From the NCBI GenBank assembly GCA_027310725.1, contig DAIDAG010000059.1, positions 1 through 64,000 of the forward strand: a DNA stretch of 64,000 nt, written 5' to 3'. A program made the position numbers and the translations under genes. Source of the DNA: Sideroxydans sp. (lineage in GTDB: Bacteria > Pseudomonadota > Gammaproteobacteria > Burkholderiales > Gallionellaceae). Below are positions 778 to 19,169 of the stretch, piece by piece; the first letter of the stretch is position 1; each line of letters begins with the position of its first letter. The notes beneath the pieces were generated by a model, which made no database searches, was not told the origin of the DNA, and saw nothing but the letters and a program-made list of their open reading frames with translations.

Positions 778-1242
778 TTATTTTTTGTTGAAGTGGGCTT
801 TGAAGAAAGTTTGTATCGAATCAAACTTTTCGGGAGTAGGGAACTGGCCCTTGTGAAACACGAATTGCTGTTGCTTGCCAGCGCCATCCAGACCCGAAAT
901 GCCGAATGTCTTTCCCGAATAGTCGGGGAAGTAGCGCAAGTTCTTCACGAGATTAACCTGGGTACCGTTACGCTGGACCAGGCCAATGTTCTCGTCCGTT
1001 ACCTTGAGAGATATCGGTGCCGAGGGTAAAAGCATCAGCCGGGTTTTGAATACACGGTTAAACCCGGCGATAAAAAAGAAGCAGGTCAGGAAGAAGAACA
1101 GATAACCCATGTTGTGGTCATCGTCGTACCAGAAACCGGCAGCGATCGAGGCCAGCGCGACCACAGTTGGAATGTACAGCAACAGATCCCAAACCATTCC
1201 TTTGCGATCGGGTACCAAATCGAAATTCATTGTCTCCTTCAT
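778..1242 (-). CDS. Small membrane protein of unknown function
   Basis: 154 residues. Two membrane helices lie near residues 18-37 and 45-62, separated by a short acidic/histidine turn (WYDDDHNMGY), followed by about 90 soluble residues rich in beta-prone sequence that resemble the PH-like arrangement of small bacterial membrane proteins. I do not recognise the family. A second in-frame ATG at 1230 follows AAGGAG by three bases, so the true start may be there. It is last in the minus-strand run of oxidase-related genes, with 77 bases to the thioredoxin-like gene, so it may belong to that unit. Confidence 0.65.
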   Translation of the reverse strand: MKETMNFDLVPDRKGMVWDLLLYIPTVVALASIAAGFWYDDDHNMGYLFFFLTCFFFIAGFNRVFKTRLMLLPSAPISLKVTDENIGLVQRNGTQVNLVKNLRYFPDYSGKTFGISGLDGAGKQQQFVFHKGQFPTPEKFDSIQTFFKAHFNKK

Positions 1243-1319
1243 GAGCTGTCTACCGTATTCTGTTGATATTGTATTTGCAGTGGCTACCAGGTTCAGCTGA
1301 TTGCCTCACATGACAATTT

Positions 1320-1817
1320 TCAATTGATTGTTTTCAGTGCACTGTCCATTTCACCGAGCAGCATCCTGCCGGCTTGTTCAAACTGAACGACGCCATGCTT
1401 GTCGATGATAAAGGTCCAAGGGTCGCCCATGACTCTATACGCCTTATAGGCCTGGGGATTGGCATATTGGTCTATGTGGATAAATATGATTTTGTCCTGA
1501 TACTGATCCATCACGCCCTTCAGCATTTGAAGCTGCTGGTCGCAATTGGTACAGTGTCCTGGAGTGGCAAATTCCAATACGATAGGCTTGCCCGTCAGCA
1601 ACGCCTTATCAACCGAATATTGATACATGCGGGGATCCGGCTGGCGATAAGTGGTGACTTTGCTGAAGTTTCCGTCGGCATCCGCCAGGGTTTTGGTGGG
1701 CAAGCTCGGCGCATGCATCCCGACGGCGAAGCCGGCGGACAGATTCTGCTCGCAGCCGCTAACCGCGCCCACGAGAGCCAGTCCCAAGCTTGCCGACAGG
1801 AACTTCCGCATCTTCAT
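1320..1817 (-). CDS. Thioredoxin-like lipoprotein
   Basis: 165 residues. The ATG at 1817 overlaps the stop of the upstream gene as ATGA, which argues for translational coupling and against the longer start at 1832. The N-terminus is a lipoprotein signal with lipobox VSGC (Cys22), so it should sit on the periplasmic side. The remainder is a thioredoxin fold with a CTNC redox pair (Cys89, Cys92) after IVLEFATPGH and a C-terminal strand with a cis-Pro-like MGDPWTFIIDKHGV. Likely roles are disulfide reduction, heme c maturation or copper delivery for the neighbouring oxidase; the exact role is inference from context. Confidence 0.8.
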   Translation of the reverse strand: MKMRKFLSASLGLALVGAVSGCEQNLSAGFAVGMHAPSLPTKTLADADGNFSKVTTYRQPDPRMYQYSVDKALLTGKPIVLEFATPGHCTNCDQQLQMLKGVMDQYQDKIIFIHIDQYANPQAYKAYRVMGDPWTFIIDKHGVVQFEQAGRMLLGEMDSALKTIN

Positions 1818-2332
1818 AACGGCTTCTGCCACCCGACTTTGGTTGTTTTATACAAGTTGTAGCCCCAGATGATGTTTGCCGACAGTACTAGCATGCCAAA
1901 CATTCCGACGAAGGCCAGCAAATGGCTCACTACTTTTTCGGTGTTCTCTCCTGAGCCCAGTCCACCGATCAATCCGGCTGAAAGGAAGAACACCACCATT
2001 CCGATCAATCCGAAGTTATGCATCCAGAAGTGTATCTTTACGAGCCGTACGCTGTATATCTGGCGGCGGGAAACCGTAGGGACGACATAGTACAGAGCGG
2101 CGAAAATCGCCATTTCAACCCATCCCAGCAGGTTGATGTGGCCATGCGCCAGCGTGATCAGGCGACCGTGCGCACTATAGTCCACAAAATACCGGAAAGC
2201 CGGGACGCCGCCCATTACCGCTCCCCAGGTGAATCCGATGATGCTGTAAATAATGCACGCGTAGACGAACCATAAAAGGTATTTGTTAAAGTCTTCGAGT
2301 TGTGCGGCGCTGTGCTCAATGCTTTGCTTCAT
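1814..2332 (-). CDS. Stand-alone four-helix heme-copper oxidase subunit I-like protein
   Basis: 172 residues with four predicted helices. The second helix carries AHGHINLLGW and continues into ALYYVVP, and the third begins after QIYSVRLVKIHFW. This pattern matches helices I-IV of CcoN/NorB-type subunit I, where the helix II histidine binds low-spin heme b. The copper-site and helix X histidines of a full subunit are absent. Short proteins with this AHxHxNLLGW motif are widespread and usually annotated as cbb3 subunit I; no function is established that I know of. It overlaps the cytochrome gene upstream by 17 bases and the lipoprotein gene downstream by 4. A relative lies at 16571-17098. Confidence 0.75.
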   Translation of the reverse strand: MKQSIEHSAAQLEDFNKYLLWFVYACIIYSIIGFTWGAVMGGVPAFRYFVDYSAHGRLITLAHGHINLLGWVEMAIFAALYYVVPTVSRRQIYSVRLVKIHFWMHNFGLIGMVVFFLSAGLIGGLGSGENTEKVVSHLLAFVGMFGMLVLSANIIWGYNLYKTTKVGWQKPL

Positions 2333-2897
2333 GTTGTTCCTCTTGTGGTTTTGTTTTCATCCAGTCGCGAATGTCTTTGTACTGTGATCTCCACCCGTCC
2401 GGAGCCCACATATCCAGCATGGCATCGATAAAACTCGAATCGCCCTTCGGAGGTACAAATGATGAAGACGATCCCTGGTCGGATTTCAGTTCAGACAGGA
2501 AGACGGCCATGGTGTGCAATTCCGCATCCGGCAGCTCGGATACATAAGCGGCATCCTTTGGAGGCGCGCCATGATCCATGGTCTTCGAGCCGTAGACCTG
2601 TTCCGGTTTCTTAAGGAAAGAATAGAAGTAATCGACGTCATGCTTTGAACCCAGGCCATCCAGGCTGACACCCATGCTCGTACCGCTGCCGACCGCTCTA
2701 TGGCAGGTATAACAGTCTCTTTGCTGATATATCTGGTAGCCGCGCAAACCTTCATCTGAAAAAACGAAGTGAGTCAGAATAGGGAACAAAGGTTTGTCCG
2801 AGTTGCGTCTGATTGATTCCAGGACAGTAAAATTTATCACAGTAATAACGACCAGCAACGCAATTATCCCAAAAAGGATCTTTTCTCCCTTTTTCAT
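2316..2897 (-). CDS. Membrane-anchored monoheme cytochrome c
   Basis: 193 residues. An uncleaved signal anchor (MKKGEK followed by a hydrophobic stretch to about residue 25) is followed by a periplasmic domain with one CYTCH heme site at Cys62-His66. A later methionine-containing segment probably supplies the second ligand. The start follows GGAG at good spacing. Its N-terminus and the LDGLGS segment after the heme site resemble the protein at 8960-9442, so the two are probably paralogs. It is likely an electron donor or subunit for the neighbouring oxidase. A terminator-like hairpin lies between it and the upstream diheme cytochrome gene. Confidence 0.85.
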   Translation of the reverse strand: MKKGEKILFGIIALLVVITVINFTVLESIRRNSDKPLFPILTHFVFSDEGLRGYQIYQQRDCYTCHRAVGSGTSMGVSLDGLGSKHDVDYFYSFLKKPEQVYGSKTMDHGAPPKDAAYVSELPDAELHTMAVFLSELKSDQGSSSSFVPPKGDSSFIDAMLDMWAPDGWRSQYKDIRDWMKTKPQEEQHEAKH

Positions 2898-3057: not shown

Positions 3058-3846
3058 TTAGCGGACTACTTTAAGCTTTTCCAGAACCGTCTGATTGCCG
3101 ATTTCGGTTCCATCACCAACCGTGCTGTCAGGAGCCTGCGACAGGAAAGTGGCGACATCATTGATGTCGTCATCGGACAGGTTGTGGGCAACTTTCCGCA
3201 TTTGACCCATCGGATCGTTTGTGCGGGAGGCATCACGCCAGCTCGTTAACTGCGCAACCAGGTAGGTATATTTTTGCTGGCCGATCTTCGGATAAACCGG
3301 ATCGGCACCGCGGCCATTAAATCCGTGGCAGGACGTACAAGCGGACACTCTGTCCTTTTCCGCTACGCCCGGACCATTGCGACCATAACGAACAAGGATC
3401 GAGCCTTTGTAAGCCTCGCCGATCTTGGTTCCATCAGCTTTAAGCTGGTTCAGGTCGGAGAGCTCCGCATTCCTTGGGAAGCTGTTTTCATATGCAGCCA
3501 GATCGCGCCGGTCCTGCTCGCTGAGCGCTTTTGCGATGCCATTCATCTGTTGCATGATGTTATCAGTACGCTTGTCTTCCGCGAAATTCGTCAATTGTTT
3601 GACAATGTACACATATCCGATATTTGCGAGCCTAGGCGCTCTCATCGCATCTTGCCCCATCGCTTTATCGCCATGACATGTGGCGCAAGCAGGCACGCTC
3701 CCGTCGGGCTTGCCATTTTCGAAAATGCTTTTACCGTTGGTTAAATTCACACTTACGGTAGTACCCTCAGCCAAACTTGCACCTGAAAATGCCAGCATGG
3801 CGGCCGCCCCCAAACACGCCATTGCCAAATTCGATAATTTACGCAT
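3058..3846 (-). CDS. Periplasmic diheme cytochrome c (c4-like)
   Basis: 262 residues. The ATG at 3846 follows a strong G-rich ribosome site (gggggagg). A cleavable signal peptide ends near ASLA. Two cytochrome c domains follow, with CATCH at 54-58 and CTSCH at 170-174, each followed by GxxAMGQ or GFNGRGAD as in class I cytochromes of the c4/c553 type. Methionine ligands are plausible in the MGQMRK and MQQMNG regions. In ordinary cbb3 oxidases two hemes sit in CcoP; here no CcoP with hemes is found, so this protein may carry electrons to or within the oxidase. That role is inferred. Confidence 0.87.
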   Translation of the reverse strand: MRKLSNLAMACLGAAAMLAFSGASLAEGTTVSVNLTNGKSIFENGKPDGSVPACATCHGDKAMGQDAMRAPRLANIGYVYIVKQLTNFAEDKRTDNIMQQMNGIAKALSEQDRRDLAAYENSFPRNAELSDLNQLKADGTKIGEAYKGSILVRYGRNGPGVAEKDRVSACTSCHGFNGRGADPVYPKIGQQKYTYLVAQLTSWRDASRTNDPMGQMRKVAHNLSDDDINDVATFLSQAPDSTVGDGTEIGNQTVLEKLKVVR

Positions 3847-3945
3847 GTGCCTCCCCCTCAAATTATTAATTACCTGCAATTCACGCAGGACGATGCCATT
3901 TCATTCCTTAAATATATGTACAGCCGGATTCGAGCCCTGCTGATC

Positions 3946-4050
3946 TCAAGAATGCTTTTTCATCAGAATAAAAGCCAAGCCGAACAAAAACACGAAAATA
4001 CCTGCATACATAATAAGAACTTCGCTGGTTGTTACATCTGGCTCAAGCAT
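3946..4050 (-). CDS. Single-helix membrane microprotein, 34 residues
   Basis: A short frame encodes 34 residues starting MLEPDVTTSEVL and ending MKKHS, with one hydrophobic helix of about 20 residues (MYAGIFVFLFGLAF) and a basic C-terminus. AAGGAG lies 7 bases before the ATG. The gene leads the minus-strand cytochrome run and faces the phased repeats at 4173-4221. Its shape resembles CcoQ/CcoM/CydX-type accessory peptides that stabilise oxidases. The frame is short, so coding status rests on the ribosome site, the clean helix and the presence of three similar frames in this locus. Confidence 0.7.
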   Translation of the reverse strand: MLEPDVTTSEVLIMYAGIFVFLFGLAFILMKKHS

Positions 4051-4172
4051 GTGTATCTCCTTGATCAATCATGGTTATAAAAACATTCACACTAAAAAAT
4101 ATACCCTTTTAGACGGCACGATATTAGCACCAAGAAATCCACGAAGCAATAGTGTTATTGGCGTCTTCTTAC

Positions 4173-4439: not shown

Positions 4440-4721
4440 ATGAGTACAAACAAAGAGCCTAAATCTCTATCCATTTGGCTGATTCTTGTAAGCGGGATGC
4501 TGACGGGGATGGGTAATGGCAGCGTTTTTGGCGCAACTTTAATGTGCCTGATGGGGCGTGGGGGATTTGGTAACTGGGGTGGATTTGCGTGGACGGCATA
4601 TGACCCATCTACTTTCACCGGATTTATCGATATTGCAATGATCGTTTTCGGAATCGCGTTTTGCGGGATCCTGTATGTTGGCTTGAATCGCCACTATAAA
4701 TTGGAGAGTGGGGCTGCCTAG
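4440..4721 (+). CDS. Small two-helix membrane protein of the oxidase operon
   Basis: 93 residues. Hydrophobic segments lie near residues 11-35 and 62-82, joined by a glycine/tryptophan-rich loop (GRGGFGNWGGFAW). It is the first gene of the plus-strand oxidase operon, behind a very G-rich ribosome site (aaggggggg). I do not recognise the family. Position and size suggest an accessory subunit or assembly factor for the oxidase. The minus-strand frame over the same bases has no ribosome site and is a shadow. Confidence 0.75.
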   Translation: MSTNKEPKSLSIWLILVSGMLTGMGNGSVFGATLMCLMGRGGFGNWGGFAWTAYDPSTFTGFIDIAMIVFGIAFCGILYVGLNRHYKLESGAA

Positions 4722-4889: not shown

Positions 4890-4913
4890 TTTTTCGAGTT
4901 GAGGGGGAGTAAC

Positions 4914-6320
4914 ATGTTTAAATATCTGTTTGCCAAAAACGAAGACATACCAGCCGGTTCGGCTGCGGTGTTCTTCGGGTTTTCAGCGATTATCTGGTTC
5001 GTGATCGGTACGGGACTGGGTTCATTTAATGCGGCAAAGCTTGCATTTCCGGATTTTGTGACCGGAAATATATATTTCGCCTTCGGTCATATGCGCCAAG
5101 TGCACGTGATGGCGGTGATCTTCGGCTGGATCTCCATGGCATTCGCCATGGCAATGATGTACATCACGCCGGCCTTGGGGAACACCAAGCTGTGGTCCGA
5201 AAAACTGGGTTTGTGGAACTGCTTGCTCTGGAACCTGGGATTGACGCTCGGGCTGACTGTTTTGTGGGCGGGTATCACTTCCGGACGTGAATATTCCGAC
5301 TTCCCGTGGCCTGTGGATTTGTATTTGGCTTTCTTCGTTTTCATCCCGCTTGCTGTCAACGTCTGGATGACGATTCTGAATCGCCGTACTCAGGGTATTT
5401 ACACGACAAACTGGTTCTTTGCGTCGGCCGTATTTATGGTGATCATCGTGTTCCTGGTGGGTAATTCTCCTGAATTTTTCCATCTGACCGGTCTTACCGA
5501 GGCCTATTTGACCTGGTGGTTCGCGCACAACGTTCTGGGGCTGTGGATCACTCCGGTAGCTGCCGCGATCGCTTATTACACCATTCCGAAAGTCACTGGA
5601 AATCCGCTGTATTCGCACCGCATTGGTCACTTGCACTTCTGGTCTGTGGTGGTGTTTTACTCCACGCCTGCTGCGCACCACCTGATGTCGGCGCCTTTGC
5701 CTGAATGGCTGAAGTCCTTCGCTTCTGTGGAGGGTGTGTTGATTCTGGTGCCCGCGATCGCCTTCGTATCGAACATCATGCTGACGATGAAGGGCAAGTG
5801 GCATATGTTCGTCGAGAACATTGAGGTGCGTTTCACCATCACTGGTTGCTTGATGGCTATTCCCCTGAACATGCAAGGTGGCTTCCAGCAAACTCGTGCG
5901 ATTAACTGGTACATCCACGGAACAGGCTGGATCGTCGCTCACGCACACTTGGCATTGCTCGGATTCTCTACCTTCCTGGAAGCCGCTGCGGTTTACCTGG
6001 GCTTGCAGACGATCATGAAACGCAAGCTGTACTCCCTGACGCTGGCCAATATGCACTTCTGGCTGTTGCTGATCGGTTTCACCATTTACTGGGTTTCCAT
6101 GACGATCGCCGGCCTGATTCAAGGCGCGGGCAAGATTTACGAAGTTCCGTATATCGACGTTGTGATCGCTGAGCACCCATACATGATCGCACGCTGGATC
6201 GGCGGCACCCTGGTATTCACTGGCAACATTCTGTGGCTGTACAACATGTGGATGACGGCGCGCAAGGGAACTGAAGTGCCGGAGGGCCGTATGCCGCATG
6301 AACTGGGATACGAGCGCTAA
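4914..6320 (+). CDS. ccoN: cbb3-type oxidase catalytic subunit I (CcoN-like)
   Basis: 468 residues, about 12 membrane helices. It reduces oxygen (or possibly NO) at a heme-copper centre in the inner membrane. The expected ligands are visible: His64 in helix II (RQVHVMAVIFGW) and His345 for heme b, His343 for the high-spin heme (VAHAHLALLG), and His205 (WWFAHN), His255 and His256 (PAAHHL) for copper. Tyr249, six residues before the HH pair, matches the cross-linked tyrosine of cbb3 enzymes. The ATG at 4914 follows gaggggg; the TTG at 4899 would overlap that site and was rejected. The sequence is clearly cbb3-like but unlike common CcoN in many loops, so it belongs to a divergent branch. Confidence 0.9.
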   Translation: MFKYLFAKNEDIPAGSAAVFFGFSAIIWFVIGTGLGSFNAAKLAFPDFVTGNIYFAFGHMRQVHVMAVIFGWISMAFAMAMMYITPALGNTKLWSEKLGLWNCLLWNLGLTLGLTVLWAGITSGREYSDFPWPVDLYLAFFVFIPLAVNVWMTILNRRTQGIYTTNWFFASAVFMVIIVFLVGNSPEFFHLTGLTEAYLTWWFAHNVLGLWITPVAAAIAYYTIPKVTGNPLYSHRIGHLHFWSVVVFYSTPAAHHLMSAPLPEWLKSFASVEGVLILVPAIAFVSNIMLTMKGKWHMFVENIEVRFTITGCLMAIPLNMQGGFQQTRAINWYIHGTGWIVAHAHLALLGFSTFLEAAAVYLGLQTIMKRKLYSLTLANMHFWLLLIGFTIYWVSMTIAGLIQGAGKIYEVPYIDVVIAEHPYMIARWIGGTLVFTGNILWLYNMWMTARKGTEVPEGRMPHELGYER

Positions 6321-6353: not shown

Positions 6354-7310
6354 ATGGCTGGATTTAGAGAATATAAAGTTGGAGCGAGGCTATTCGCCAT
6401 GGCGTTTGGCGGCTCGATGTGTATCACATTGTTGTTTCCGAGCATCAATATCGCTGCAGTGTCTTCAACCGATGTGGCGCTGTCGAAGCAACTGGCAGTG
6501 GGCCATGAAACGGGCTTCAATCTGGAAGATCCGTTTCTTCAGGGTAAGAACAAGCCTACTGTTGTCGCACTGAAGGCCGACCCGAAAACCGGTCAGCCGC
6601 TTGGAGAAGCAATGTCGGTGTTTGTATACCAGCCCGGAACGACGTTTCCTGCCGGTATCCTGCATCCGCGTATCCTGGGTCAGGGTATCGAGCAGTTGAG
6701 CGTGGAGCAAGGGCATATTACCGATGCGCAAAAGGCCTATGGTGCGGTCTTCACGGTCAGCAAGGGAACGTATCAGGGGAAAGAGTTCAGCTACATCGAC
6801 AATCTGACCGCTACCAAGGGTTGGATGCCGGCCGATGTGATGCACTCGGCCAAGGATGAGGATATTTCCCACGCAGGCGCCGGCAAGACGTACTTTGTGC
6901 GTGAAGGTTGCTGGTGGTGCCACACCCTGCTTCCGGAGCAAACACAGGACTGGCAGGTATTCGGTGCGCCCCCGATGCTGGGTGACTTCAACGGTGAATC
7001 GCCAACCGCGTTCGGTTCGGACCGCAAGGCTCCAGACTTGATGCACGTCGGTTCGCGCAACTCGTCCAAAGAATGGCTGATGATGCACTTCTTCAATCCT
7101 CGCCTGGTCCAGCCGCATTCAATCATGCCGCGCTTCGACTATCTGTGGGGTGAAAAGGATGCTTCCGGCAACAAGATCGATTACGACAAATGGCGCGCAG
7201 AGTATGACGAATATCGCGAGGGCAAGCGTGTATCGCCTCCGGATGTTCCTGCTTATGCCAGCGATTCTGAAATCCGCAGTCTGATTGACTTCATGCTGAG
7301 TCTGAAGTAA
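6354..7310 (+). CDS. ccoO: CcoO-like membrane-anchored monoheme cytochrome c
   Basis: 318 residues. One N-terminal helix (about residues 11-35) anchors a periplasmic domain. The heme site is REGCWWCH at 183-190, matching the REGCYNCH of CcoO but with two tryptophans between the cysteines. KAPDLMHVGSR and SIMPRF (Met258 as likely axial ligand) are also typical CcoO elements. CcoO is normally 200-240 residues; here about 130 residues are added between the anchor and the heme domain. It follows the catalytic subunit by 33 bases, as in ccoNO operons. The family call is firm; the purpose of the extra segment is unknown. Confidence 0.87.
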   Translation: MAGFREYKVGARLFAMAFGGSMCITLLFPSINIAAVSSTDVALSKQLAVGHETGFNLEDPFLQGKNKPTVVALKADPKTGQPLGEAMSVFVYQPGTTFPAGILHPRILGQGIEQLSVEQGHITDAQKAYGAVFTVSKGTYQGKEFSYIDNLTATKGWMPADVMHSAKDEDISHAGAGKTYFVREGCWWCHTLLPEQTQDWQVFGAPPMLGDFNGESPTAFGSDRKAPDLMHVGSRNSSKEWLMMHFFNPRLVQPHSIMPRFDYLWGEKDASGNKIDYDKWRAEYDEYREGKRVSPPDVPAYASDSEIRSLIDFMLSLK

Positions 7311-11608: not shown

Positions 11609-11727
11609 AGATTTAACAGTCAGATTCTGTTTGTTGCTCTTACAAGATATTGCATTCTGATGTCCCCTCCCAAGCATCGACAAACGTCATTCCCGTCAAA
11701 GCCCAAGTAATTATTTCGAGTCTGCCG

Positions 11728-14367
11728 ATGCCACTGAACCAACCTTCAAACATCAATTCAGGAAGCGCGCACAAGGTATGGTGGCTGGTGGCTGTCCTGT
11801 ATTGTTTTTCGGGCCTGACAAGTCTTGCCTATGAAGTGCTCTGGTCGCGCATGTTGTCCATGCAATTCGGGGTGAGTATCTTCGGTGTGGTGCTGACTGT
11901 TGCGGCCTTCATGCTCGGATTGGGATCGGGTAGCCTGGCGGGAATCAAATGGGCAAAGCAAAGCAAAGAACCCATAACCATATTTGCGGTTCTTGAGATT
12001 GGGATCGCCATATATGCCCTTCTGCTTCCATTATTGCTCCGCTCATCAAACGGCTGGATGGAAGGGGTCGCAAGTCAGTTGACCTTGCTGCAGTGGTATC
12101 TGTTGCAGGGTGCCGGAGCATTTTGCCTGTTGCTTATTCCGGCATTCGCCATGGGAGCAGGCTTTGCGCTGGTACTGAAGACGGTTGAGCAAACGCCAAT
12201 TTCGCTGGGAAAGATCTACGGCCTGAATACGTTGGGAGGAGTTGCCGGGGCAATATTTCCGTTATGGAGTTTACCGGCAATCGGCTGGACCGATTCGGTG
12301 AGAATCATGGCGATGGTTGGTATGGGAGTCGGCATTTCGGCATTGGCTGTGTCTCGTTCTGTAAATCGGGCAAAACCGCTGCTTCAGGAAAAAGAGAATA
12401 GAAGCGAACGGCCGCCTATCTCTGCGCTGATGGTTTATGCAGGAATCGGAGCCGGGAGCATCATGCTTGAGATAGGCTGGGTGCGGCTATACGGCATGAT
12501 CATGCTGCGCACAGAATATGTGCTCGGTCTGATCCTGGCAGTGTTCCTCCTGGGGATCGCGCTGGGAAGCATGTTCCTGCCACGACTGAAAAAATACGGT
12601 CTGTCCGCTTTTATGCCGTTTGTAATCGGCGGGGGGGTGCTGTTGGGCTTATTGATGTTGCCTGCCACTTCTGCATGGATCGAGCAGAGCGATTTCAAAT
12701 CGTTTTTCTGGGCGACGACGTACCAGGCCCTGATCCTCGGAGTATTTACACTCCCGATCACATTGGCTCTGGGCGCTTGGCTGCCGCTGATGGCAAGCCG
12801 TTACGATGATGCAGAGTCCAGCGGTGTGTGGCTGTATGGGGCGAACTGTCTGGGTGGCAGTGCCGGGGCAGTAATTGCCTGTTTGATATTCATTCCTTTG
12901 CTAGGCAGTGTAGGGATGGTTGCCCTATGTGCAGTTGCGATAACGGCATTGGGCCTGATCTGGGTCAAGTCACGCTGGGCATGGCTCGGATTTGCCTTTA
13001 TGCTTGTGGCAGCATGGTCATTGCGCACCATGCCTCCTGTGCATGAGTTACTGCCCAGAATCGAAGCGGATAGCCGTAATCTCTACCTGTATGAAGATGC
13101 GATTTCATTGACCCATGTTGTCCAACAACCGGATGGGCAGCGGGTTTTGCTGAGCGATCTGCAGCGTATGGATGCATCTACCGACCCGAGTGCGGTAGAG
13201 ATACAGAAAGATCAGGCCAGGCTCGCATTGCTGCTGCATCCGGCACCCAAAAGTGTATTGTTCCTTGGATTGGGGACCGGGATTTCGGCGGCGGGATCGA
13301 AGCCGTTTCCAAGCCTGATTCGAAGTGCAGTGGAATTATCACAGGGCTCGATTAATTCGGCCAAGTACCTCTTCTCCCCAGTAAATGGCAATATTCTGGA
13401 TCAAGTGCAAATTCAAAGGGACGATGCCAGGCATTTCCTAAGCAGCACGCAACGTCACTACGATGTCATCGTCGGTGATTTGTTTCACCCGGATATTGCT
13501 GGAATGGGGTCGCTGCTCTCAGTGCAACAGTTTGAAAGAGCAAAAAATCGTTTGAACAGGGGCGGGGTATTTGTGCAATGGTTGGCCCTTAATCAGTTCG
13601 AGATAGAATCGCTCAAGGTGGTGCTGCGGAGCTTTCAGCACGTATATCCGAACGCTCAATTATTCATGGATGGCATGCACTTGGCTTTGGTCGGGCCAGA
13701 AAATGAATTTTCCGGAGCAAATGCGATATTGCAGAACTTGGAACGGATGAATCCGGCGGAACAAAGCCAGGCAACAGGAGCCGAAGGTGCATGGACCTGG
13801 ATAGGGCGATACTGGGGCCCAATAGATGAAATGAACGGACCGCTTCAGGACGAGTGGGAGCCGTATATAGAATATAAACTGCCTCGAGCCCGTTACGATG
13901 GCAATGTAAACCTCGCAAATTTGATGTTGTGGTTGTTACAGCGCCACCCGGAGCCTGAAGCTGCGATGCGGCTATTGGCTATCGATGCAAATGACAAGAG
14001 TAAATTCGGGCGAGACTATGTGGCGACCGAGCTTACAGTTCGTGCGTGGGTTCTATCCATTCAAGGTGATGCAGCAAAGGCGGGGAATCTGATTTGGTTG
14101 GCCTATCAGGCCAACCCCCGGGATCGCTGGATAGCAAATTCACTAGCTGATAGCATGTGGCAATCCCTCACACAGGCCAAGGATCATGGCCTGAGCGAAC
14201 GTGATGCCTTGCAGCGCATCATTAAGGTGTACCCAGACCATGTGGGTGCCTTGCGCGCCCTGTGGCATCTGGAATCAACGGAGGGTAAACCACAAGCCGC
14301 CGAGCAGTATCGTTCGCGTTTGCTTGCAAATTCGCCCCTGGACAGTGAAGCGAAATCAATTCAATGA
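11728..14367 (+). CDS. Fused polytopic membrane / spermidine-synthase-like protein
   Basis: About 879 residues from ATG 11728; a TTG at 11650 would add 26 polar residues. The first 450 residues hold about 12-14 membrane helices with FSGLTSLAYEVLWSRMLS and IMLEIGWVRLYG, the repeated SLxYExxW-R motif typical of fused transporter/spermidine synthases. A Rossmann-type aminopropyltransferase domain follows (VLFLGLGTG, then VQIQRDDARHFL and DVIVGDLFHPD). The last 150 residues look helical and repeat-like. Such fusions are common in proteobacteria, with uncertain substrates; polyamine synthesis is not shown. Its place between oxidase genes is striking. Confidence 0.78.
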   Translation: MPLNQPSNINSGSAHKVWWLVAVLYCFSGLTSLAYEVLWSRMLSMQFGVSIFGVVLTVAAFMLGLGSGSLAGIKWAKQSKEPITIFAVLEIGIAIYALLLPLLLRSSNGWMEGVASQLTLLQWYLLQGAGAFCLLLIPAFAMGAGFALVLKTVEQTPISLGKIYGLNTLGGVAGAIFPLWSLPAIGWTDSVRIMAMVGMGVGISALAVSRSVNRAKPLLQEKENRSERPPISALMVYAGIGAGSIMLEIGWVRLYGMIMLRTEYVLGLILAVFLLGIALGSMFLPRLKKYGLSAFMPFVIGGGVLLGLLMLPATSAWIEQSDFKSFFWATTYQALILGVFTLPITLALGAWLPLMASRYDDAESSGVWLYGANCLGGSAGAVIACLIFIPLLGSVGMVALCAVAITALGLIWVKSRWAWLGFAFMLVAAWSLRTMPPVHELLPRIEADSRNLYLYEDAISLTHVVQQPDGQRVLLSDLQRMDASTDPSAVEIQKDQARLALLLHPAPKSVLFLGLGTGISAAGSKPFPSLIRSAVELSQGSINSAKYLFSPVNGNILDQVQIQRDDARHFLSSTQRHYDVIVGDLFHPDIAGMGSLLSVQQFERAKNRLNRGGVFVQWLALNQFEIESLKVVLRSFQHVYPNAQLFMDGMHLALVGPENEFSGANAILQNLERMNPAEQSQATGAEGAWTWIGRYWGPIDEMNGPLQDEWEPYIEYKLPRARYDGNVNLANLMLWLLQRHPEPEAAMRLLAIDANDKSKFGRDYVATELTVRAWVLSIQGDAAKAGNLIWLAYQANPRDRWIANSLADSMWQSLTQAKDHGLSERDALQRIIKVYPDHVGALRALWHLESTEGKPQAAEQYRSRLLANSPLDSEAKSIQ

Positions 14368-14400: not shown

Positions 14401-15717
14401 ATGTCCTCCAGTATGAACAAAGTGCTATCCAGCATTCCGGTCAAAGTGATCGGTACCGGTATGAAAAAGCGAGCTGGCAATTACCAATGGAAGAGGCGCG
14501 CGATTCAGACGATCATTCTGGCTTTACTGGTGATCATCCCGGTATCCGGACTATTCCGGATTGACCCCGAAAATGGAGCGCTGGTTGTGCTGGGCTGGCA
14601 AATCTGGTTCGCCGATTTCTTTTTGATATCCGGCCTATGGATCATGATAGCCAGCGCATTGGTCGCGCTGTATTCCATTGCAGGAACGGTATTTTGCGGA
14701 TGGGCCTGCCCGCAAAATACCGTTGCTGAATGGGCAAATCACATGACGCATAAATTGCTTGGCAAGCGTGCCGAAGTCAGTTTGATCGGCGAAGCGCCGA
14801 AAGTGGCTGCTGCCAAAAACAAGGCGCTGAACTGGACGTTGCTGGCGCTTTCGTTTATAGGCGCAGCGATGTTTTTTGCGTTGTTGCCGTTATTGTATTT
14901 CTACCCGCCGGATGTGGTTTGGTCCTTTATGATTTTCAGAACAGACACGAGACTGGCCGGTTCCTTGTACTGGATATATTCAGTGTGGGTGATGATTATC
15001 CTGCTGGATATAGCGGTGCTCAGGCATTTCTGGTGCCGTTTTGCATGTGTCTACAGGGTTTGGCAACACTCGTTCAAAACCAAGGAGACCTTGCACGTGC
15101 TTTACGACGCCAGCCGGGCTGACGAATGCGAAAAATGCAATTACTGCGTGACGACTTGTTTTATCGAGTTGGATCCGCGCAAAACTGAAATTTATGACAG
15201 TTGCATAAATTGCGGTGATTGCATTGATGCCTGCAATAATTTACATGCAAAGAAGGGCGGAGTAGGCTTGCTACGGTTTGAGTTCGGGCAGCGAACAGCA
15301 GGCAAGGTTCAGAGGCTGCGGGACAACACGGTGTTGTTGCTAGCAAGATTCCGCTGGACTGCTCCCTTCGCGGCTCTGGGTATCGTCTTGTTTGCATGGG
15401 GTGTGTGGTCTTACCAGCCATATCACATAGCGGTAGGATATCTGCAGACGGCACACAATCAATCTGCACGCGATTACCGCATCGAGATATCGAGCAAACG
15501 TTATCGCCCATCCGAACTGAGCGTTGCGGTAGAAGGTTTGCCAGAGGGTGCATTTACCCTGAGCAAACCCAAAGTAATCATGGATACGGTCAGTAGAACA
15601 TCGGTGTTTCTTACGGTGTCACCTAAATTGGAGCGTGGCCTGCATCCTTTTGCGGTGGTGGTTCGCTCCACTGACGGCTGGATCGGACGTTTCAATCTGC
15701 AGCATTTTGTGGAATAG
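14401..15717 (+). CDS. ccoG: Cytochrome oxidase accessory protein CcoG
   Basis: 438 residues. CcoG/FixG is a membrane iron-sulfur protein that acts in copper handling during cbb3 assembly. About five helices carry the conserved FCGWACPQNTVAEW near residue 100. Two cysteine clusters follow: Cys243, 246, 249, 253 and Cys268, 271, 274, 278, typical for two [4Fe-4S] centres. The last 110 residues form the Ig-like FixG C-terminal domain. Length is slightly shorter than usual (about 460-480). No copper ATPase CcoI is present nearby. Confidence 0.92.
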   Translation: MSSSMNKVLSSIPVKVIGTGMKKRAGNYQWKRRAIQTIILALLVIIPVSGLFRIDPENGALVVLGWQIWFADFFLISGLWIMIASALVALYSIAGTVFCGWACPQNTVAEWANHMTHKLLGKRAEVSLIGEAPKVAAAKNKALNWTLLALSFIGAAMFFALLPLLYFYPPDVVWSFMIFRTDTRLAGSLYWIYSVWVMIILLDIAVLRHFWCRFACVYRVWQHSFKTKETLHVLYDASRADECEKCNYCVTTCFIELDPRKTEIYDSCINCGDCIDACNNLHAKKGGVGLLRFEFGQRTAGKVQRLRDNTVLLLARFRWTAPFAALGIVLFAWGVWSYQPYHIAVGYLQTAHNQSARDYRIEISSKRYRPSELSVAVEGLPEGAFTLSKPKVIMDTVSRTSVFLTVSPKLERGLHPFAVVVRSTDGWIGRFNLQHFVE

Positions 15718-15728
15718 GAGTACTAGTC

Positions 15729-16157
15729 ATGGAAAAAATGGACAAGAAATTGGAATTCTCGGATGAAAAGACGAAATGGGGTGAATTGCGCAAGGATAAT
15801 TTTGGCTACACATCCGATCAAGAACGATTGGAGAAACGAGGGCTGGAAGATTGGGAATTGGTAGAGAAGATTCCGGAATCCCAACAAAAAGTGCCATATT
15901 GGTTCATGGCCGTCGTGGTGATTGTATTGCTTGTAGGAGTTGGACTTAGCTTTCCATTCTGGGGGCTGCGACCAGGAGTGGTAGTCAACTGGGTTGATTG
16001 GGTAAAAGACCCCGGGTTCCTGGGTTCGCTTGTATATATCGCTGTAGCCGCAGCATTTGTATATTACATGGTGAATATGTACGGCTCCACAGTTGGAGGA
16101 AGGCTCGATTCAGATAAAGAAAAACAGAATGAAGAAAAGACCGAAGGGAAAAAGTAA
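15729..16157 (+). CDS. Heme-less two-helix protein related to the 7326-7943 product
   Basis: 142 residues behind a good aggag site. A charged N-terminus of about 55 residues leads to helix 1, which ends LSFPFWGLRPG, then VVVNWVDWVKD and helix 2 (VYIAVAAAFVYYMV), and a very charged tail rich in Lys/Glu. The FPxWGxRP motif and helix arrangement match the protein at 7326-7943, whose connecting loop is much longer. No heme motif is present. It could be a second version of the same anchor subunit or an assembly factor. Confidence 0.7.
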   Translation: MEKMDKKLEFSDEKTKWGELRKDNFGYTSDQERLEKRGLEDWELVEKIPESQQKVPYWFMAVVVIVLLVGVGLSFPFWGLRPGVVVNWVDWVKDPGFLGSLVYIAVAAAFVYYMVNMYGSTVGGRLDSDKEKQNEEKTEGKK

Positions 16158-16184: not shown

Positions 16185-16574
16185 ATGAAAAAGTTACTGT
16201 CAGTCTTATTGAGCTGCCTCATGATGAGTCTTGTTGCCTGTAGCGATGATGGCAAGCAGTTATCGATCGCTCCGCAGCATTGGAAAGAGGCAGATATTCG
16301 CATAGAGACCCATCCAAACCCGCCGTTAGCGGGAATGTCCGAAATTGTCGTTATTGTGACTGGTCCGCGCGGAAGGCCTGTCCAGGACTTGACGGTTTCC
16401 CTGCGCGGGAATGACTCGATGCAATGGGTACAGGCGATACAGGATGGAAATATTGGAGTGTATCGCCGTGCCATAGATATTGGCGAAGGTGAATCAATAG
16501 CACTTCAGGTGCAGTTACAGCAAGGCGTGGATAAAACAGTACTCCTATTCCCATTGAAGCTGGCAAAGAGCTAA
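16185..16574 (+). CDS. FixH/YtkA-like lipoprotein
   Basis: 129 residues. The N-terminus is a lipoprotein signal with lipobox LVAC. The rest is an all-beta domain (HPNPPLAGMSEIVVIVTGP, then VTGPRGRPVQDLTVSLRG) like the periplasmic fold of FixH/CcoH and YtkA proteins, which help cbb3 assembly or copper handling. True CcoH has a membrane helix instead of a lipid anchor, so this is a variant or a functional analogue. It ends the plus-strand operon; its stop codon overlaps that of the convergent gene. Confidence 0.68.
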   Translation: MKKLLSVLLSCLMMSLVACSDDGKQLSIAPQHWKEADIRIETHPNPPLAGMSEIVVIVTGPRGRPVQDLTVSLRGNDSMQWVQAIQDGNIGVYRRAIDIGEGESIALQVQLQQGVDKTVLLFPLKLAKS

Positions 16575-17098
16575 TGCAGCGAAGTTGTAAAGTCCTCTTT
16601 GGATACGGACGTAATTGTCAAAATCACATTTGCCAGATAGGTGCAAAAACCTATGGCCATTGTTGTGCCGGAAAGCGCCATGACTGGCCCATAAAAGCGG
16701 TGCACTGACGCCATGTCTCCTGGGGAGCTTATTAGCAGGCCTTCCCAAATGCCAAATACCATTTGTATTATGTAAAAGCTGTATACCCCAATGCTGACCC
16801 ACCAGAATGTATGCTGAACCAGTTTTATGGAATATATATTCTTTCCGGTAAAAATTGGCAACAGATAATATGTTACGCACATGGCAAGCAAAACTACGCC
16901 GCCAACCAAATTCATATGCGCATGGGCCAATGGGTCGATCATGTGACCGGGGCCGCCGTAAGGGCTGCCAATTGAGTCAAGCCACGCACGAACAGGTGGC
17001 ATGACTTGAAACATGCCGTGAATGGTGCCAATAAAAAAAGAAAGAGCAGAAAGCAGCAGAAATTTTAAAAGTTGCCGATGCAGAATGTTAGTGGTCAT
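16571..17098 (-). CDS. Second stand-alone four-helix oxidase subunit I-like protein
   Basis: 175 residues, four helices. Helix II carries LAHAHMNLVGG followed by TYYLLPIFTGKNIYSIKL, closely parallel to AHGHINLLGW...YYVVPTVSRRQIYSVRL of the protein at 1814-2332. It matches helices I-IV of heme-copper oxidase subunit I, with the low-spin heme ligand of helix II but none of the copper ligands. Paired use of two such proteins in one locus is unusual. It may form a dimeric heme b protein; that is inference. Confidence 0.73.
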   Translation of the reverse strand: MTTNILHRQLLKFLLLSALSFFIGTIHGMFQVMPPVRAWLDSIGSPYGGPGHMIDPLAHAHMNLVGGVVLLAMCVTYYLLPIFTGKNIYSIKLVQHTFWWVSIGVYSFYIIQMVFGIWEGLLISSPGDMASVHRFYGPVMALSGTTMAIGFCTYLANVILTITSVSKEDFTTSLH

Positions 17099-17226: not shown

Positions 17227-17267
17227 AGTAGGAGCAACAATATTAATCAATATTGTCAGATTATTGG

Positions 17268-17372
17268 TTACTTCTTGTCGACGATGCGGTCAATACCCAT
17301 GCCGGCAAGATGAATCGCTACCGCGACACCCAAAGCAAAAATTGCAACTGGAACTAGAAGTTCAACTGGCAT
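17268..17372 (-). CDS. Single-helix membrane microprotein, 34 residues
   Basis: The frame encodes MPVELLVPVAIFALGVAVAI then HLAGMGIDRIVDKK: one helix with a histidine near its end and a basic tail. A gggggag ribosome site lies 7 bases upstream, the same kind used by the oxidase genes. The sequence resembles the first half of the 66-residue protein at 17518-17718 (MIVELLVFLLAAIFGLIITG). It has its own terminator, so it seems to be a real, separately expressed gene. Confidence 0.74.
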   Translation of the reverse strand: MPVELLVPVAIFALGVAVAIHLAGMGIDRIVDKK

Positions 17373-17517
17373 AGCACACTCCCCCATTAAAGATGTTTAA
17401 AGTATTCAAAATAAACAGCCAAGCTGCCTAATTTGAGTTCAAGTCTAGCGGAATACACTTACTCCTGCAACTCCTTGCAGTACATCCAAATGACTTCGAA
17501 ATTTATAACGAAAGCAA

Positions 17518-17718
17518 CTATTTTCTGCCTGCGCGCTTTGCAATCACATCCCATGCCATATACATAATTGCACAGGCAACCAAAAGACAGGCTATTCCAA
17601 TAATTTGATACTCGGCTTCTGTACTGACCAAGCCTCCAACAAACATATGTACCGCGAAGCCGGTGATAATCAACCCGAAAATCGCGGCAAGCAAGAAGAC
17701 CAATAACTCAACAATCAT
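17518..17718 (-). CDS. Small two-helix membrane protein
   Basis: 66 residues: helix 1 (about 3-27, containing FAVHMFVGG), a short polar turn STEAEYQ, helix 2 (IIGIACLLVACAIMYMAW) and a basic end. Its first half is similar to the nearby 34-residue microprotein. The ATG overlaps the stop of the upstream membrane protein gene (ATGA), so the two are coupled. Function unknown. Confidence 0.7.
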   Translation of the reverse strand: MIVELLVFLLAAIFGLIITGFAVHMFVGGLVSTEAEYQIIGIACLLVACAIMYMAWDVIAKRAGRK

Positions 17719-19169
17719 GATTTCTTGTCTGGAATCATATCGGTAGAAGGATGCTTGATTTGAACGATCACCCCGCCTAGCTGCAAAGCAAGGGTTTCGA
17801 CTTTGCCGGCATCCATCATGGCAATATTATGGGAGAGAGAGCTGTTTTTTGGATTGCGCGGATCGAATATCAAATAATCGATGCCTCGCAACATTGAAAA
17901 TAATGCCGCACTGTCCTGAGCATTTGGGGGGAGAGGGAGTGCATCGCATCTGCAAGCGAGCATGGTTAACCCCGGCCACTGACTCGCTACCCGCAGGGGC
18001 GTTTTTGGAGAAGGATTTTGATTGGAATCGCTATTTGAAAAGAGTCCACTATCTTCCGCTAGCGTCTTGATCAGAGTGTCCCGCGGTGACAGGTAATCCA
18101 TTGGCAATAATTGATAACTCTCCTTGTCTATCACCATGAACGTTGTAGAAATCACGACAGAAAGTAATAAAACCATTCCCTGTTGTGCCCAAAAACCTCT
18201 GTGCTGGCTTGATGATCTTTGCAGCAGAAGCGGAAAGCCCCAATACAGGCAGATTACCAGTGCAACTATTCCAAATATTTCATCCCCGGTTAGCAAGCCA
18301 ATTAGGAGTGCGAATAAGAGCGTTCGACCGAGAAAATCAGCCCAAAGATGGGCAGCTTGTTTCCAAATGACCGAGATTAAAACGAAGAGCATGCCAATGC
18401 CGCAAATCCAGTGGAAAGGGCCAAATGCCTCGCCAAGTGCCGGACCTAACAGAAGGGCTGATAAGCTCATGATTGGATTATTAAACCACTCAATATGGCT
18501 CCATCCTGAAGTGAGCGCTAGAGCCATTAATGTTGCAAATGCAATGCCAAAATAAAAATAGGTTCGATGTTTTTGGTCGATCGGATTTTTATACCAGGAC
18601 CATAGCAGTGCCAAAGGATAAGCAAGGCCCAGCGGATGAAGCGTGATGCTGACTAAGCATAATGAAATCTGTGCGAAATACATTCCTCCGAATGCTCGCT
18701 TTGATTCACGGTAGAGTTGATCAGACCAAGCGCCTAGTGCAAAGATAAGCAGTAAGTATGCCGCGACTGATATGGTGTCAATTTGACCGATCAGCAACGG
18801 GGAGATCAACAGCAACCCGGTGGCCAATAGTGCACTTTCACCGTATCCGCTTCGATGGCGCCAAGCGTGCAAAGCCCAAGCCGCGATTGCCATTATCAGC
18901 ATTGTCGTTATTTTTGCTGCGACTATGTTGCCTGTCCACAAAATGCCGGCAGGGGCAAGAAATATCGTACGAAAATCGGGGAAACCCAGAGTTAGAATCG
19001 GACTGACAACGTTGTCTGATACTGACCAGACTAGCAGTAAAGCATGGGCTGCACCTTCATCAATTCCATAAGATGTTTTGTGCAATAGCATGAAACTGAG
19101 TACCGCCCAAATTGAAAGGGCGAAATAAGCCAAATACTTGTTAGGGATTCGAAATAGCCAATTGTTCAT
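17715..19169 (-). CDS. Polytopic membrane protein of unknown function
   Basis: 484 residues with about 11 predicted helices and a soluble C-terminal part of about 110 residues (from KESYQLLPMDYLSPRD onward). An early SYGIDEGAAHALLLV segment places acidic residues on the first external loop, as in GT-C glycosyltransferase-like proteins, but I cannot confirm that family. The C-terminal domain has ASQWPGLTMLACRCDALPLP and IDYLIFDPRNPKNSS. It is coupled to the 66-residue protein. Base composition looks AT-richer than the pilus region; I have not measured it. Confidence 0.6.
   Translation of the reverse strand: MNNWLFRIPNKYLAYFALSIWAVLSFMLLHKTSYGIDEGAAHALLLVWSVSDNVVSPILTLGFPDFRTIFLAPAGILWTGNIVAAKITTMLIMAIAAWALHAWRHRSGYGESALLATGLLLISPLLIGQIDTISVAAYLLLIFALGAWSDQLYRESKRAFGGMYFAQISLCLVSITLHPLGLAYPLALLWSWYKNPIDQKHRTYFYFGIAFATLMALALTSGWSHIEWFNNPIMSLSALLLGPALGEAFGPFHWICGIGMLFVLISVIWKQAAHLWADFLGRTLLFALLIGLLTGDEIFGIVALVICLYWGFPLLLQRSSSQHRGFWAQQGMVLLLSVVISTTFMVIDKESYQLLPMDYLSPRDTLIKTLAEDSGLFSNSDSNQNPSPKTPLRVASQWPGLTMLACRCDALPLPPNAQDSAALFSMLRGIDYLIFDPRNPKNSSLSHNIAMMDAGKVETLALQLGGVIVQIKHPSTDMIPDKKS

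Follow-up and report, generated by a model that had tools for sequence, protein, structure and literature searches.

A divergent C-type heme-copper oxidase locus of Gallionellaceae with a conserved gene set and a heme-less CcoP-like protein family

The closest described relatives of the locus reported here are the cbb3-type oxidases (CcoNOQP; P. stutzeri, PDB 3mk7/5djq) and several divergent C-type forms. Under the term "distal cbb3" of Ducluzeau 2008, as cited in PMC7029218, PMC8788666 and PMC10734462, a second C-type form has been recognized in iron oxidizers, among Zetaproteobacteria, in which proximal and distal forms have been reported (PMC7029218), and Gallionellaceae. In S. lithotrophicus ES-1, the "distal" ccoNO genes were up on thiosulfate and the "proximal" ones up on Fe(II) (PMC8788666). 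In Ferrovum JA12, the cluster FERRO_02570/02560 has been described as encoding only subunits I and II, with subunit III missing, and co-localized cytochromes have been proposed as its stand-ins (PMC4725956). Such oxidases are already in print as cbb3-type. Fused CcoNO proteins (Nitrospina type, PMC3578206) are also divergent C-type oxidases.

Gene content and conservation of the locus

The locus spans positions 778-19169 of a window of 64,000 nucleotides from a Sideroxydans-like Gallionellaceae genome. It contains genes for an intact C-type subunit I and a CcoO-like subunit, together with about 20 others (Table 1). It shares with cbb3-type oxidases the CcoN fold, the six histidine ligands and the active-site tyrosine, the CcoO-like monoheme subunit and CcoG- and CcoS-like partners. 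Unlike CcoNOQP, it has no diheme CcoP and combines a heme-less FixP_N-like anchor with two anchored monoheme cytochromes, two four-helix CcoN-half proteins, a longer CcoO-like subunit and some 20 genes.

Table 1. Features of the oxidase locus, with their occurrence among the best 80 named loci
Coordinates	Strand	Feature	Match or remark	Loci
778..1242	-	two-helix membrane protein	no Pfam match	42/80
1320..1832	-	thioredoxin-fold lipoprotein with CxxC	AhpC-TSA 4.6e-6	42/80
1814..2332	-	four-helix CcoN C-terminal-half protein 1 (4TM_1)	PF00115 9e-16; helix-X double His kept	
2316..2897	-	cytA, membrane-anchored monoheme cytochrome c	Cytochrom_C 2.7e-7; bis-His predicted	
3058..3879	-	soluble diheme cytochrome c (c4/Cyc1-like)	two Cytochrom_C stretches, 1.8e-18; true start probably near 3846	40/80
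3946..4068	-	40-aa one-helix microprotein	chiefly Gallionellaceae/Nitrotoga	25/80
4440..4721	+	small membrane protein just upstream of ccoN		74/80
4899..6320	+	subunit I (CcoN-like), catalytic: heme b, heme b3, CuB	PF00115 5.7e-77	
6354..7310	+	subunit II (CcoO-like), one heme c (one CxxCH)	FixO 9.2e-17, over cut-off	
7326..7943	+	fpwg1, heme-less CcoP/FixP-like anchor, two TM helices	FPLWGQRP motif; FixP_N in relatives; hhalign	
8451..8663	+	two-helix microprotein		76/80
8685..8963	+	CcoS/FixS-like one-helix protein	FixS 5.9e-4, below cut-off	77/80
8960..9442	+	cytB, membrane-anchored monoheme cytochrome c	Cytochrom_C 1.8e-7; His/Met predicted	77/80
9439..9885	+	membrane protein, no role assigned		71/80
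9885..10943	+	membrane-anchored FGE/SUMF1-fold protein (fge)	PF03781 1.1e-55	72/80
10963..11211	+	one-helix small protein		68/80
11231..11608	+	small membrane protein		65/80
11650..14367	+	membrane protein fused to spermidine-synthase-like domain (spe)	PF01564 1.4e-6; true start probably near 11728	63/80
14401..15717	+	CcoG-like iron-sulfur protein	TIGR02745 4.9e-34, below curated cut-off	60/80
15729..16157	+	fpwg2, second FPxWG two-helix protein	fpwg1 paralogue	58/80
16185..16574	+	predicted lipoprotein ("fixH" slot)		57/80
16571..17098	-	four-helix CcoN C-terminal-half protein 2 (4TM_2)	PF00115 8.6e-10	
17518..17718	-	two-helix microprotein	adjoins diheme/cytA module in many relatives	36/80
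17715..19169	-	polytopic membrane protein, looser member	no Pfam match	37/80

Among the best 80 named loci, 63 hold both ends of the ccoN-to-spe block, and all 63 preserve its order, with at least 9 of the 11 core genes collinear. By this criterion the core is also preserved in 24 of 26 class-sample loci with both ends, and three Zetaproteobacterial loci contain the same genes as far as they are covered. Both content and order are largely preserved in Gammaproteobacteria (Gallionellaceae, Ferrovum, Nitrotoga and Chromatiales-like MAGs) and Zetaproteobacteria. About half of the best 80 named loci show no diheme/cytA/4TM_1/trx module, in part because contigs or fetched sequences end there; in Ferrovum P3G it is missing within 10 kb. 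Three loci (L088, L098 and L099) are rearranged, with the fge-to-fixH block out of reach. Most small ORFs are conserved in relatives and are therefore real genes. Collectively, the gene set exceeds chance. A preliminary description made from the window had proposed a distinct oxidase type of about 20 genes including several microproteins, and these data bear it out; the pattern named beforehand as speaking against a single system, ccoNO alone being kept and the other genes varying at random, was not seen.

Most of its gene assignments were likewise recovered, including the CcoG- and CcoS-like factors, for which both matches lie below cut-off. The FixH-like assignment found no support: Pfam gives no FixH match at 16185-16574 and the sequence resembles a lipoprotein. 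The thioredoxin-fold lipoprotein may be a copper or thiol assembly factor.

The CcoO-like subunit described there was confirmed by the FixO model, relative to which it carries about 125 extra residues N-side of the matched part. The TIGR00781 model matches at 8.9e-18, although its 64.8 bits fall short of the equivalog cut-off, 200.65. In its predicted model (pLDDT 76.5), the extra domain is confident and the heme part poor, and a PDB fold search with this model, extra domain included, gave no match.

The catalytic subunit and oxygen reduction

The catalytic subunit matches CcoN of PDB 3mk7 at 5.7e-67. The claim that its active site is intact holds across the family, as the six histidine ligands and Tyr251 (P. 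stutzeri numbering) are retained in 107/107 alignment rows, the sole gap being one X at His60. Four positions that are invariant in the canonical rows have changed: Y237 is His and Y317 Ala in all 107 rows, S240 is Gly in 106 and Ala in one, and E323 is replaced (E323Q) in 106 or 107. We take Y237, S240 and Y317 to be residues of the K-like proton path, and these replacements suggest that proton uptake may be altered. In the subunit I tree, the locus proteins form a separate deep clade (support 100/100) that includes neither canonical CcoN nor fused CcoNO. Against canonical CcoN from relatives, identity is 29-33%, and the score against the NCBIfam ccoN equivalog, 231.5 bits, falls short of the cut-off of 583.15. 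Fused CcoNO proteins (ORFs in genomes G011, G014, G022 and G282) share His237 and Gln323 with the locus clade in three Gallionellaceae rows, but differ by the fusion itself, a Gly203/Tyr208 signature, the retention of Y317 and S240, and their separate clade.

The two four-helix fragments of subunit I are also substantiated: 4TM_1 aligns with the CcoN C-terminus (hhalign 100), and short PF00115 matches, some below cut-off, occur twice per genome in 26/26 and 20/20 oxidase-bearing genomes. The pair is found even where it is unlinked to the locus.

In 10/10 Ca. Nitrotoga genomes (drafts, completeness not given) the locus protein is the only full-length PF00115 protein, and 21 of 26 gammaproteobacterial genomes, each at least 94% complete, have no full-length heme-copper oxidase besides it. 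When bd oxidase was also sought, as was alternative oxidase in all 10 Nitrotoga genomes and in 19 of the gammaproteobacterial ones, no other terminal oxidase was found in 7/10 and 18/26, respectively. As it is the sole recognizable oxidase in so many genomes, the enzyme very likely reduces O2. The genomes in which it is the only full-length heme-copper oxidase include ZN8, filed as Ca. Nitrotoga fabula, a species for which aerobic respiration through cytochrome c oxidase has been described (PMC6050957).

CcoP-like anchors and cytochromes

Inspection of ORFs and CxxCH motifs in the window located no diheme CcoP in the locus, in line with the preliminary description: CxxCH is confined to the CcoO-like subunit (one), cytA (one), cytB (one) and the soluble cytochrome (two, as had been noted). 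Both heme-less two-helix proteins reported there are present; what had been overlooked is that fpwg1 is a CcoP/FixP_N relative. FixP_N (PF14715) is detected at E<=1 in 27/35 fpwg1 family members, the window protein itself being below detection; it exceeds the cut-off at the fpwg1 position in six relatives and lies slightly below it in G168. As a CcoP relative, fpwg1 obtains an hhalign value of 50% vs <=3.8% for 15 other families. Its predicted model matched nothing in the PDB, CcoP included. By these profile comparisons, fpwg1 is assigned to a heme-less CcoP-like family. The second protein, fpwg2, is its paralogue (hhalign 93.6), with FixP_N in just 1/30 family members; once contaminating fpwg1 rows had been removed, no direct similarity of fpwg2 to CcoP was found (hhalign 3.3).

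The two anchored cytochromes are paralogous (hhalign 98.9), as had been suggested. His109 is found in 62/62 and Met107 in 13/62 members of the cytA family, and Met114 in 101/103 of the cytB family. Their heme domains resemble those of CcoP (hhalign 95 and 86.5, paralogues not yet separated).

A FixP_N search found no canonical CcoP in 32 genomes (10 Nitrotoga, Ferrovum P3G and 21 gammaproteobacterial), 31 of them without another full-length oxidase gene; the Ferrovum genomes are drafts, completeness not given. The six matches obtained there (five over cut-off) all fall within fpwg1, which in the remaining 26 is too diverged for FixP_N to detect. Canonical CcoP is present in 8/9 genomes carrying another full-length oxidase. 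A canonical cbb3 operon, with one canonical CcoP (G000:C46), is present in the window genome as well, so that a shared CcoP is possible there. On these comparisons, CcoP would have been replaced by small proteins rather than simply lost.

Proposed electron path and alternative readings

We consider it likely that the locus encodes a terminal O2-reducing C-family heme-copper oxidase with its own subunit plan; its electron order, donor, O2 affinity and subunit make-up are what we infer. The periplasmic diheme cytochrome would deliver electrons to the CcoO-like heme c, either directly or with cytA and cytB as intermediates; heme b of CcoN would receive them next, and O2 would be reduced to water at the heme b3-CuB site of that subunit. 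The diheme CcoP would be split: fpwg1, and perhaps fpwg2 too, would be the surviving relative of its anchor, devoid of hemes, and the heme count would be restored by two monoheme cytochromes, each with an anchor of its own, as 1+1+1 rather than 1+2. The four-helix CcoN-like proteins, the microproteins and the CcoG-, CcoS- and thioredoxin-like proteins may be accessory subunits or assembly factors.

The enzyme may favor electrons of lithotrophic origin that enter at cytochrome c. Among the carriers in the best 80 named loci are names of Fe(II) and nitrite oxidizers, and a RuBisCO family protein was found in 26/26 carriers examined vs 18/53 non-carriers (Fisher 2.8e-9, kinship ignored; the model, PF00016, also matches RuBisCO-like proteins). 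The other electron source initially envisaged fits both observations and is carried forward as a suggestion.

Among the other readings, the most serious, to which we give slightly less than even chances, is that the locus is simply the "distal cbb3" and calls for nothing more. The distal form probably overlaps the present clade: proximal and distal forms are reported from Zetaproteobacteria, the Zetaproteobacterial loci fetched comprise three of the present type and one with canonical CcoN, and a full-length match in a frame near 1000 aa was seen in 0/43 genomes. However, ES-1, reported with a distal cluster, is absent among the best 80 named loci, and the distal form is presented in the cited parts of that literature as two subunits with nearby cytochromes, or as region synteny, the heme-less CcoP, the 4TM pair and the set of about 20 genes not being described in them. 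The JA12 cluster is likened to the locus by description, and other Ferrovum genomes, P3G among them, hold the present locus (best 80 named loci); the heme-less anchor and other genes are not treated in the cited part of that report. If distal and present types are the same, the ES-1 expression pattern argues against an iron-specific role. It is also conceivable, at somewhat lower probability, that the small genes encode assembly factors only and that the mature enzyme consists of CcoN, CcoO and cytochromes. Oxidase genes are often adjoined by assembly genes, and CcoG-, CcoS- and thioredoxin-like genes lie in the locus; against this, a long extra-membrane domain and the CcoP anchor motif are conserved in fpwg1, and the 4TM pair is kept even where unlinked, features with which an assembly role is still compatible.

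An ordinary cbb3 oxidase with CcoP encoded elsewhere and hitch-hiking neighbors is very unlikely. CcoN and CcoO are indeed C-type homologues and the window genome does hold a canonical CcoP, but 10 Nitrotoga, one Ferrovum and 21 other genomes have no detectable one, which contradicts this reading in the single-oxidase genomes, gene order is retained across two classes, and the CcoN clade and residue set are distinct. Hardly any weight falls on a CcoN-derived NO reductase, NO dismutase or sensor. NO reductases share the superfamily, and the replacement of Y237, S240, Y317 and E323 would fit such a change of function. Nitric oxide reductases lack the active-site tyrosine and have a glutamate near the active site; the one NOR row compared has Ile at the tyrosine position and Glu at 215, whereas the locus clade has Tyr (107/107 rows) and Thr. 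Its status as the only full-length heme-copper oxidase in many genomes, Ca. Nitrotoga fabula (ZN8) included, also opposes this reading.

Beyond an oxidase with its own subunit plan, we propose only tentatively a separate C-type class whose complex would unite up to about 20 polypeptides, with a dismantled CcoP and a re-routed proton path, using electrons from Fe(II) or nitrite, and serving as main or sole oxidase in Ca. Nitrotoga and many lithoautotrophs. As part of this same tentative proposal, the diheme CcoP would have become a heme-less anchor plus exchangeable monoheme cytochromes, with high-potential inorganic donors entering at cytochrome c.

In the cited parts of the literature, homology is the basis on which the oxidases of these bacteria are called "cbb3, high affinity" and in places also credited with proton pumping. 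Should the electron-entry module and the proton path differ, neither high affinity nor pumping could be assumed for Ca. Nitrotoga, Zetaproteobacteria and Ferrovum. The energy balance of nitrite oxidation and of iron oxidation hinges on such properties, as every pumped proton counts. The locus supplies a candidate subunit list and a gene marker for these lithoautotrophs.

Subunit I and gene content of the locus

Encoded at 778-19169 of the window are an intact C-type subunit I, a CcoO-like subunit and about 20 further small or medium genes. When compared with the P. stutzeri cbb3 structure 3mk7, the CcoN profile gave 5.7e-67. As the preliminary description had claimed, the subunit I ligands are intact: the six histidines and the active-site Tyr251 (P. 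stutzeri numbering) are kept in 107/107 rows, one X at His60 apart, and the single NOR row compared has Ile in place of the active-site Tyr. This survey drew 107 rows, including 10 Nitrotoga and 3 Ferrovum rows, from 115 loci, 8 of which lack a full-length gene and some of which are the same contig twice.

Features of the locus and heme c motifs of the predicted genes
Feature	Coordinates	Heme c motifs
Thioredoxin-fold lipoprotein (trx)	1320-1832	0
4TM_1, like the C-terminal half of CcoN	1814-2332	0
cytA	2316-2897	1
Soluble diheme protein	3058-3879	2
Intact C-type subunit I (CcoN-like)	4899-6320	0
CcoO-like subunit	6354-7310	1
fpwg1, two-helix FPxWG protein	7326-7943	0
cytB	8960-9442	1
FGE-fold protein (fge)	9885-10943	0
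Spermidine-synthase-like fusion (spe)	11650-14367	0
fpwg2, two-helix FPxWG protein	15729-16157	0
Predicted lipoprotein labeled FixH	16185-16574	0
4TM_2, like the C-terminal half of CcoN	16571-17098	0
76-aa ORF adjoining the locus	19440-19670	

Six positions that are invariant among 19 canonical CcoN rows are replaced in this clade: Y237 by H (107 of the 107 rows), S240 by G (106, with A in one), Y317 by A (107) and, in 107/107 rows each, E323 by Q, E125 by D and T321 by N. In cbb3 oxidases, Y237, S240 and Y317 are members of the proton path. The computations establish the gene content and order, the conserved ligands, the FixP_N kinship described below and the oxidase census, whereas we infer the O2 activity, the electron order, the proton path and any donor specialisation of this oxidase. 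In the CcoN tree, which includes 13 members of the clade and three Zetaproteobacterial rows but none from Nitrotoga or Ferrovum, the clade stands apart from canonical CcoN and fused CcoNO with 100/100 support; another tree gave 99/96. The trees and the first residue table contained 13 of 19 intended clade members, the six filtered out including Nitrotoga and Ferrovum. A Zetaproteobacterial group scoring 210-218 bits with PF00115, the heme-copper oxidase subunit I family, was sampled through three loci (L190-L192), in which no ORF of at least 300 aa matches the clade profile at E 0.01.

A third C-type clade consists of CcoNO fusions roughly 1000 aa long, found in some Gallionellaceae and in genome G282 (loci L161, L162, L163 and L198). 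Its three Gallionellaceae rows carry the Gly203/Tyr208 signature described for Nitrospina (PMC3578206).

Regarding the accessory genes, the CcoG and CcoS labels proposed earlier are supported, at scores under the curated cut-offs, and the FixH label finds no support in Pfam. In cytA, His109 is invariant (62/62) and position 107 has no conserved Met; in cytB, Met114 is kept in 101/103. A bis-His heme is therefore predicted for cytA and a His/Met heme for cytB. Formylglycine-generating enzymes are expected to carry an active-site Cys pair, which is apparently missing from the FGE-fold protein; a role in sulfatase activation is therefore improbable. The adjoining 76-aa ORF is kept in 5 of the best 80 named loci and in three same-genus loci.

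The FPxWG proteins and the missing CcoP

The locus contains no CcoP gene with heme motifs; the same genome (3.03 Mb) also has a canonical cbb3 operon including CcoP on a different contig. When scanned singly, fpwg1 and fpwg2 of the window gave nothing useful in Pfam, nor did fpwg1 in NCBIfam, and family-wide scans were thus needed. FixP_N was then matched in 27/35 members of the fpwg1 family at E ≤1 (best 7.5e-5), other families appearing in at most 2 members each; the window's own fpwg1 has no FixP_N match at E ≤1. Aligned to canonical CcoP N-termini with hhalign, fpwg1 reached 50%, and none of 15 other locus families exceeded 3.8%. Judged from these profiles, the relatives of fpwg1 appear to carry the CcoP membrane anchor; CxxCH is absent from fpwg1, which may replace CcoP in the oxidase. 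Predicted structures of the CcoO-like subunit and fpwg1 had no PDB match.

In the cleaned sets, fpwg1 and fpwg2 align at 93.6 and are paralogues. The sets of fpwg2, 4TM and cytA used in the first profile comparison contained paralogues and were then cleaned, whereupon the candidate kinship of fpwg2 with CcoP was dropped, its value falling from 36% to 3.3%. Values for cytA and cytB against the CcoP heme domain come from the sets before cleaning only.

FixP_N was also searched genome-wide in 41 genomes. Among the 9 with another full-length heme-copper oxidase, four of which (G005, G007, G011, G014) are without this locus, canonical CcoP occurs in 8, and the ninth, G377, shows the fpwg1 match alone. 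The other 32 comprise 10 Nitrotoga, Ferrovum P3G, in which an additional full-length PF00115 protein is present, and 21 gammaproteobacteria with one full-length oxidase; this search found canonical CcoP in none of the 32. FixP_N was matched in six of them, always within fpwg1 and in five cases above the cut-off; the remaining 26 have no match. In G011, a 73-aa frame (C28:107920-108021) scores 24.7 bits with FixP_N, or 25.1 when neighbours are counted, which marginally exceeds the cut-off. It lies about 2 kb beyond that genome's fused CcoNO match and is perhaps another heme-less CcoP anchor.

Linkage, order and distribution of the gene set

The preliminary description viewed the locus as one system, a reading that would have given way to a mere ccoNO pair with random neighbours if relatives kept only these two genes. 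The gene set and its order are instead largely kept across relatives. Among the best 80 of 215 stretches matched by the CcoO-like alignment in 84,980 named genomes, ccoN, ccoO and fpwg1 are found in 80/80, ccoS and cytB in 77/80, a 70-aa microprotein in 76/80, the FGE-like gene in 72/80, ccoG in 60/80, fpwg2 in 58/80 and the diheme/cytA/4TM_1/trx module in 40-42/80, absences being partly due to the ends of contigs or of fetched stretches. Where both ccoN and spe are present, the core order (at least 9/11 genes) is kept in 63/63 named and 24/26 class-sample loci. Zetaproteobacterial loci L195-L197 have the same layout over the covered parts, with CcoN 76-77% identical. Against full linkage, Ferrovum P3G lacks the diheme/cytA/4TM_1/trx module inside 10 kb of ccoO. 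Rearrangements are seen in L088, L098 and L099, the fge-to-fixH block not being in reach. In these three loci, cytB and ccoS lie upstream of ccoN in inverted orientation, with the diheme module on the downstream side, so modules can move as blocks. Two PF00115 matches of the 4TM kind, linked or unlinked, occur in all carriers examined (20/20 and 26/26, sets sharing two genomes, G423 = G168 and G424 = G344, as their contig coordinates show), the second falling under the Pfam cut-off in G076, G111, G344/G424, G350 and G427; the pair thus seems obligatory. Collectively, the oxidase is a real, conserved and deeply diverged C-type enzyme with a distinct subunit plan.

Within the genus, 4/25 genomes, the window's own counted, have a ccoN of this type that is 96-100% identical. 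A search with the CcoN query also detected 4TM_1 in these four but in no genome of the remaining 21, some of them incomplete. G+C is 0.495 over 778-17098 and 0.443 over 17099-19700, compared with a higher 0.553 from 20100 on; together with the patchy presence in the genus, this low G+C makes horizontal gain of the locus possible. G024, a single contig carrying the locus, has canonical ccoN in two overlapping frames (C1:349417-350765), a broken gene or a sequencing error.

Relatives of fpwg1 were found in 33/369 genomes sampled from the class (24/272 genera) and in 44/78 Zetaproteobacterial genomes (E < 1e-30 in 40). The 33 are the window's own genome, 31 whose relatives are 43-61% identical across most of the protein, and one with a short fragment. 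A phylum-wide sample of 398 genomes gave 45 matches, the window's genome plus 44 with E-values identical to the Zetaproteobacterial set. The best 80 of the 215 named matches include Sideroxydans, Gallionella, Ferrovum (with F. myxofaciens P3G), ten Ca. Nitrotoga records, Nitrosomonadales, Chromatiales/Chromatiaceae MAGs, one Mariprofundaceae and many unplaced Proteobacteria MAGs; S. lithotrophicus ES-1 is not among these 80. G812 has two full-length subunit I matches scoring like this type, and in G813 fpwg1 is matched twice, as is subunit I at this level, with one of the subunit I matches incomplete; second copies of the oxidase are possible in both.

Terminal oxidases of the carriers and published relatives

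In 10/10 Ca. Nitrotoga genomes, PF00115 matches nothing besides ccoN of this type and two 4TM proteins, with bd oxidase in 1/10 (G409) and alternative oxidase (AOX, PF01786) in 2/10 (G412, G416). The gammaproteobacterial carriers examined number 26, each at least 94% complete; they are the 32 other-genome positives minus G116, G219, G231, G297, G326 and G358 (quality or short contigs). This ccoN is the sole full-length PF00115 gene in 21 of them; bd occurs in 4/26 (2 among the 21) and AOX in 1/19 tested, so that in 18/26 no further oxidase of the three types was found. The AOX search covered 10 Nitrotoga and 19 class genomes, and 14 control genomes gave no match, its sensitivity thus resting on 3 matches. 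The Zetaproteobacterial census covered 43/78 genomes. As an association marker, RuBisCO was taken in place of Cyc2 or NXR: the family, which includes RuBisCO-like proteins, occurs in 26/26 carriers versus 18/53 non-carriers (Fisher 2.8e-9, kinship ignored), the latter being 53 of 336 (G041-G100 minus carriers, G045 and G048).

In the passages of the literature compared (PMC6050957, PMC10734462, PMC3578206, PMC7029218, PMC5371394, PMC4725956, PMC8788666, PMC4643136, PMC5513912), neither the complete gene set nor a heme-less CcoP was found described, and such a description may still exist in print. In Ferrovum JA12, subunits I and II alone were reported, with neighbouring cytochromes proposed as subunit III substitutes (PMC4725956). 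Ca. Tenderia weakly expresses canonical ccoNOPQ and has "complex IV-2" among its top-expressed genes. Its diheme Cyc1 lies in a stretch sharing synteny with M. ferrooxydans, and it also has a bd oxidase and a fused CcoNO (PMC5371394); the like oxidase inventory of G282 suggests that this genome may be Ca. Tenderia.

Ca. Nitrotoga fabula is reported to oxidize nitrite aerobically with a "cbb3-type" oxidase (PMC6050957), which is probably an enzyme of this type, the genome searched being isolate ZN8, filed under that species name. Proximal and distal cbb3 have been distinguished in Zetaproteobacteria and ES-1 (PMC7029218, PMC8788666). Since the profile-matching subunits I of the fetched Zetaproteobacterial loci are three of this type and one canonical, "distal" may mean this clade. 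The distal genes of ES-1 are up on thiosulfate (PMC8788666), which, if the names agree, argues against an iron-only role.
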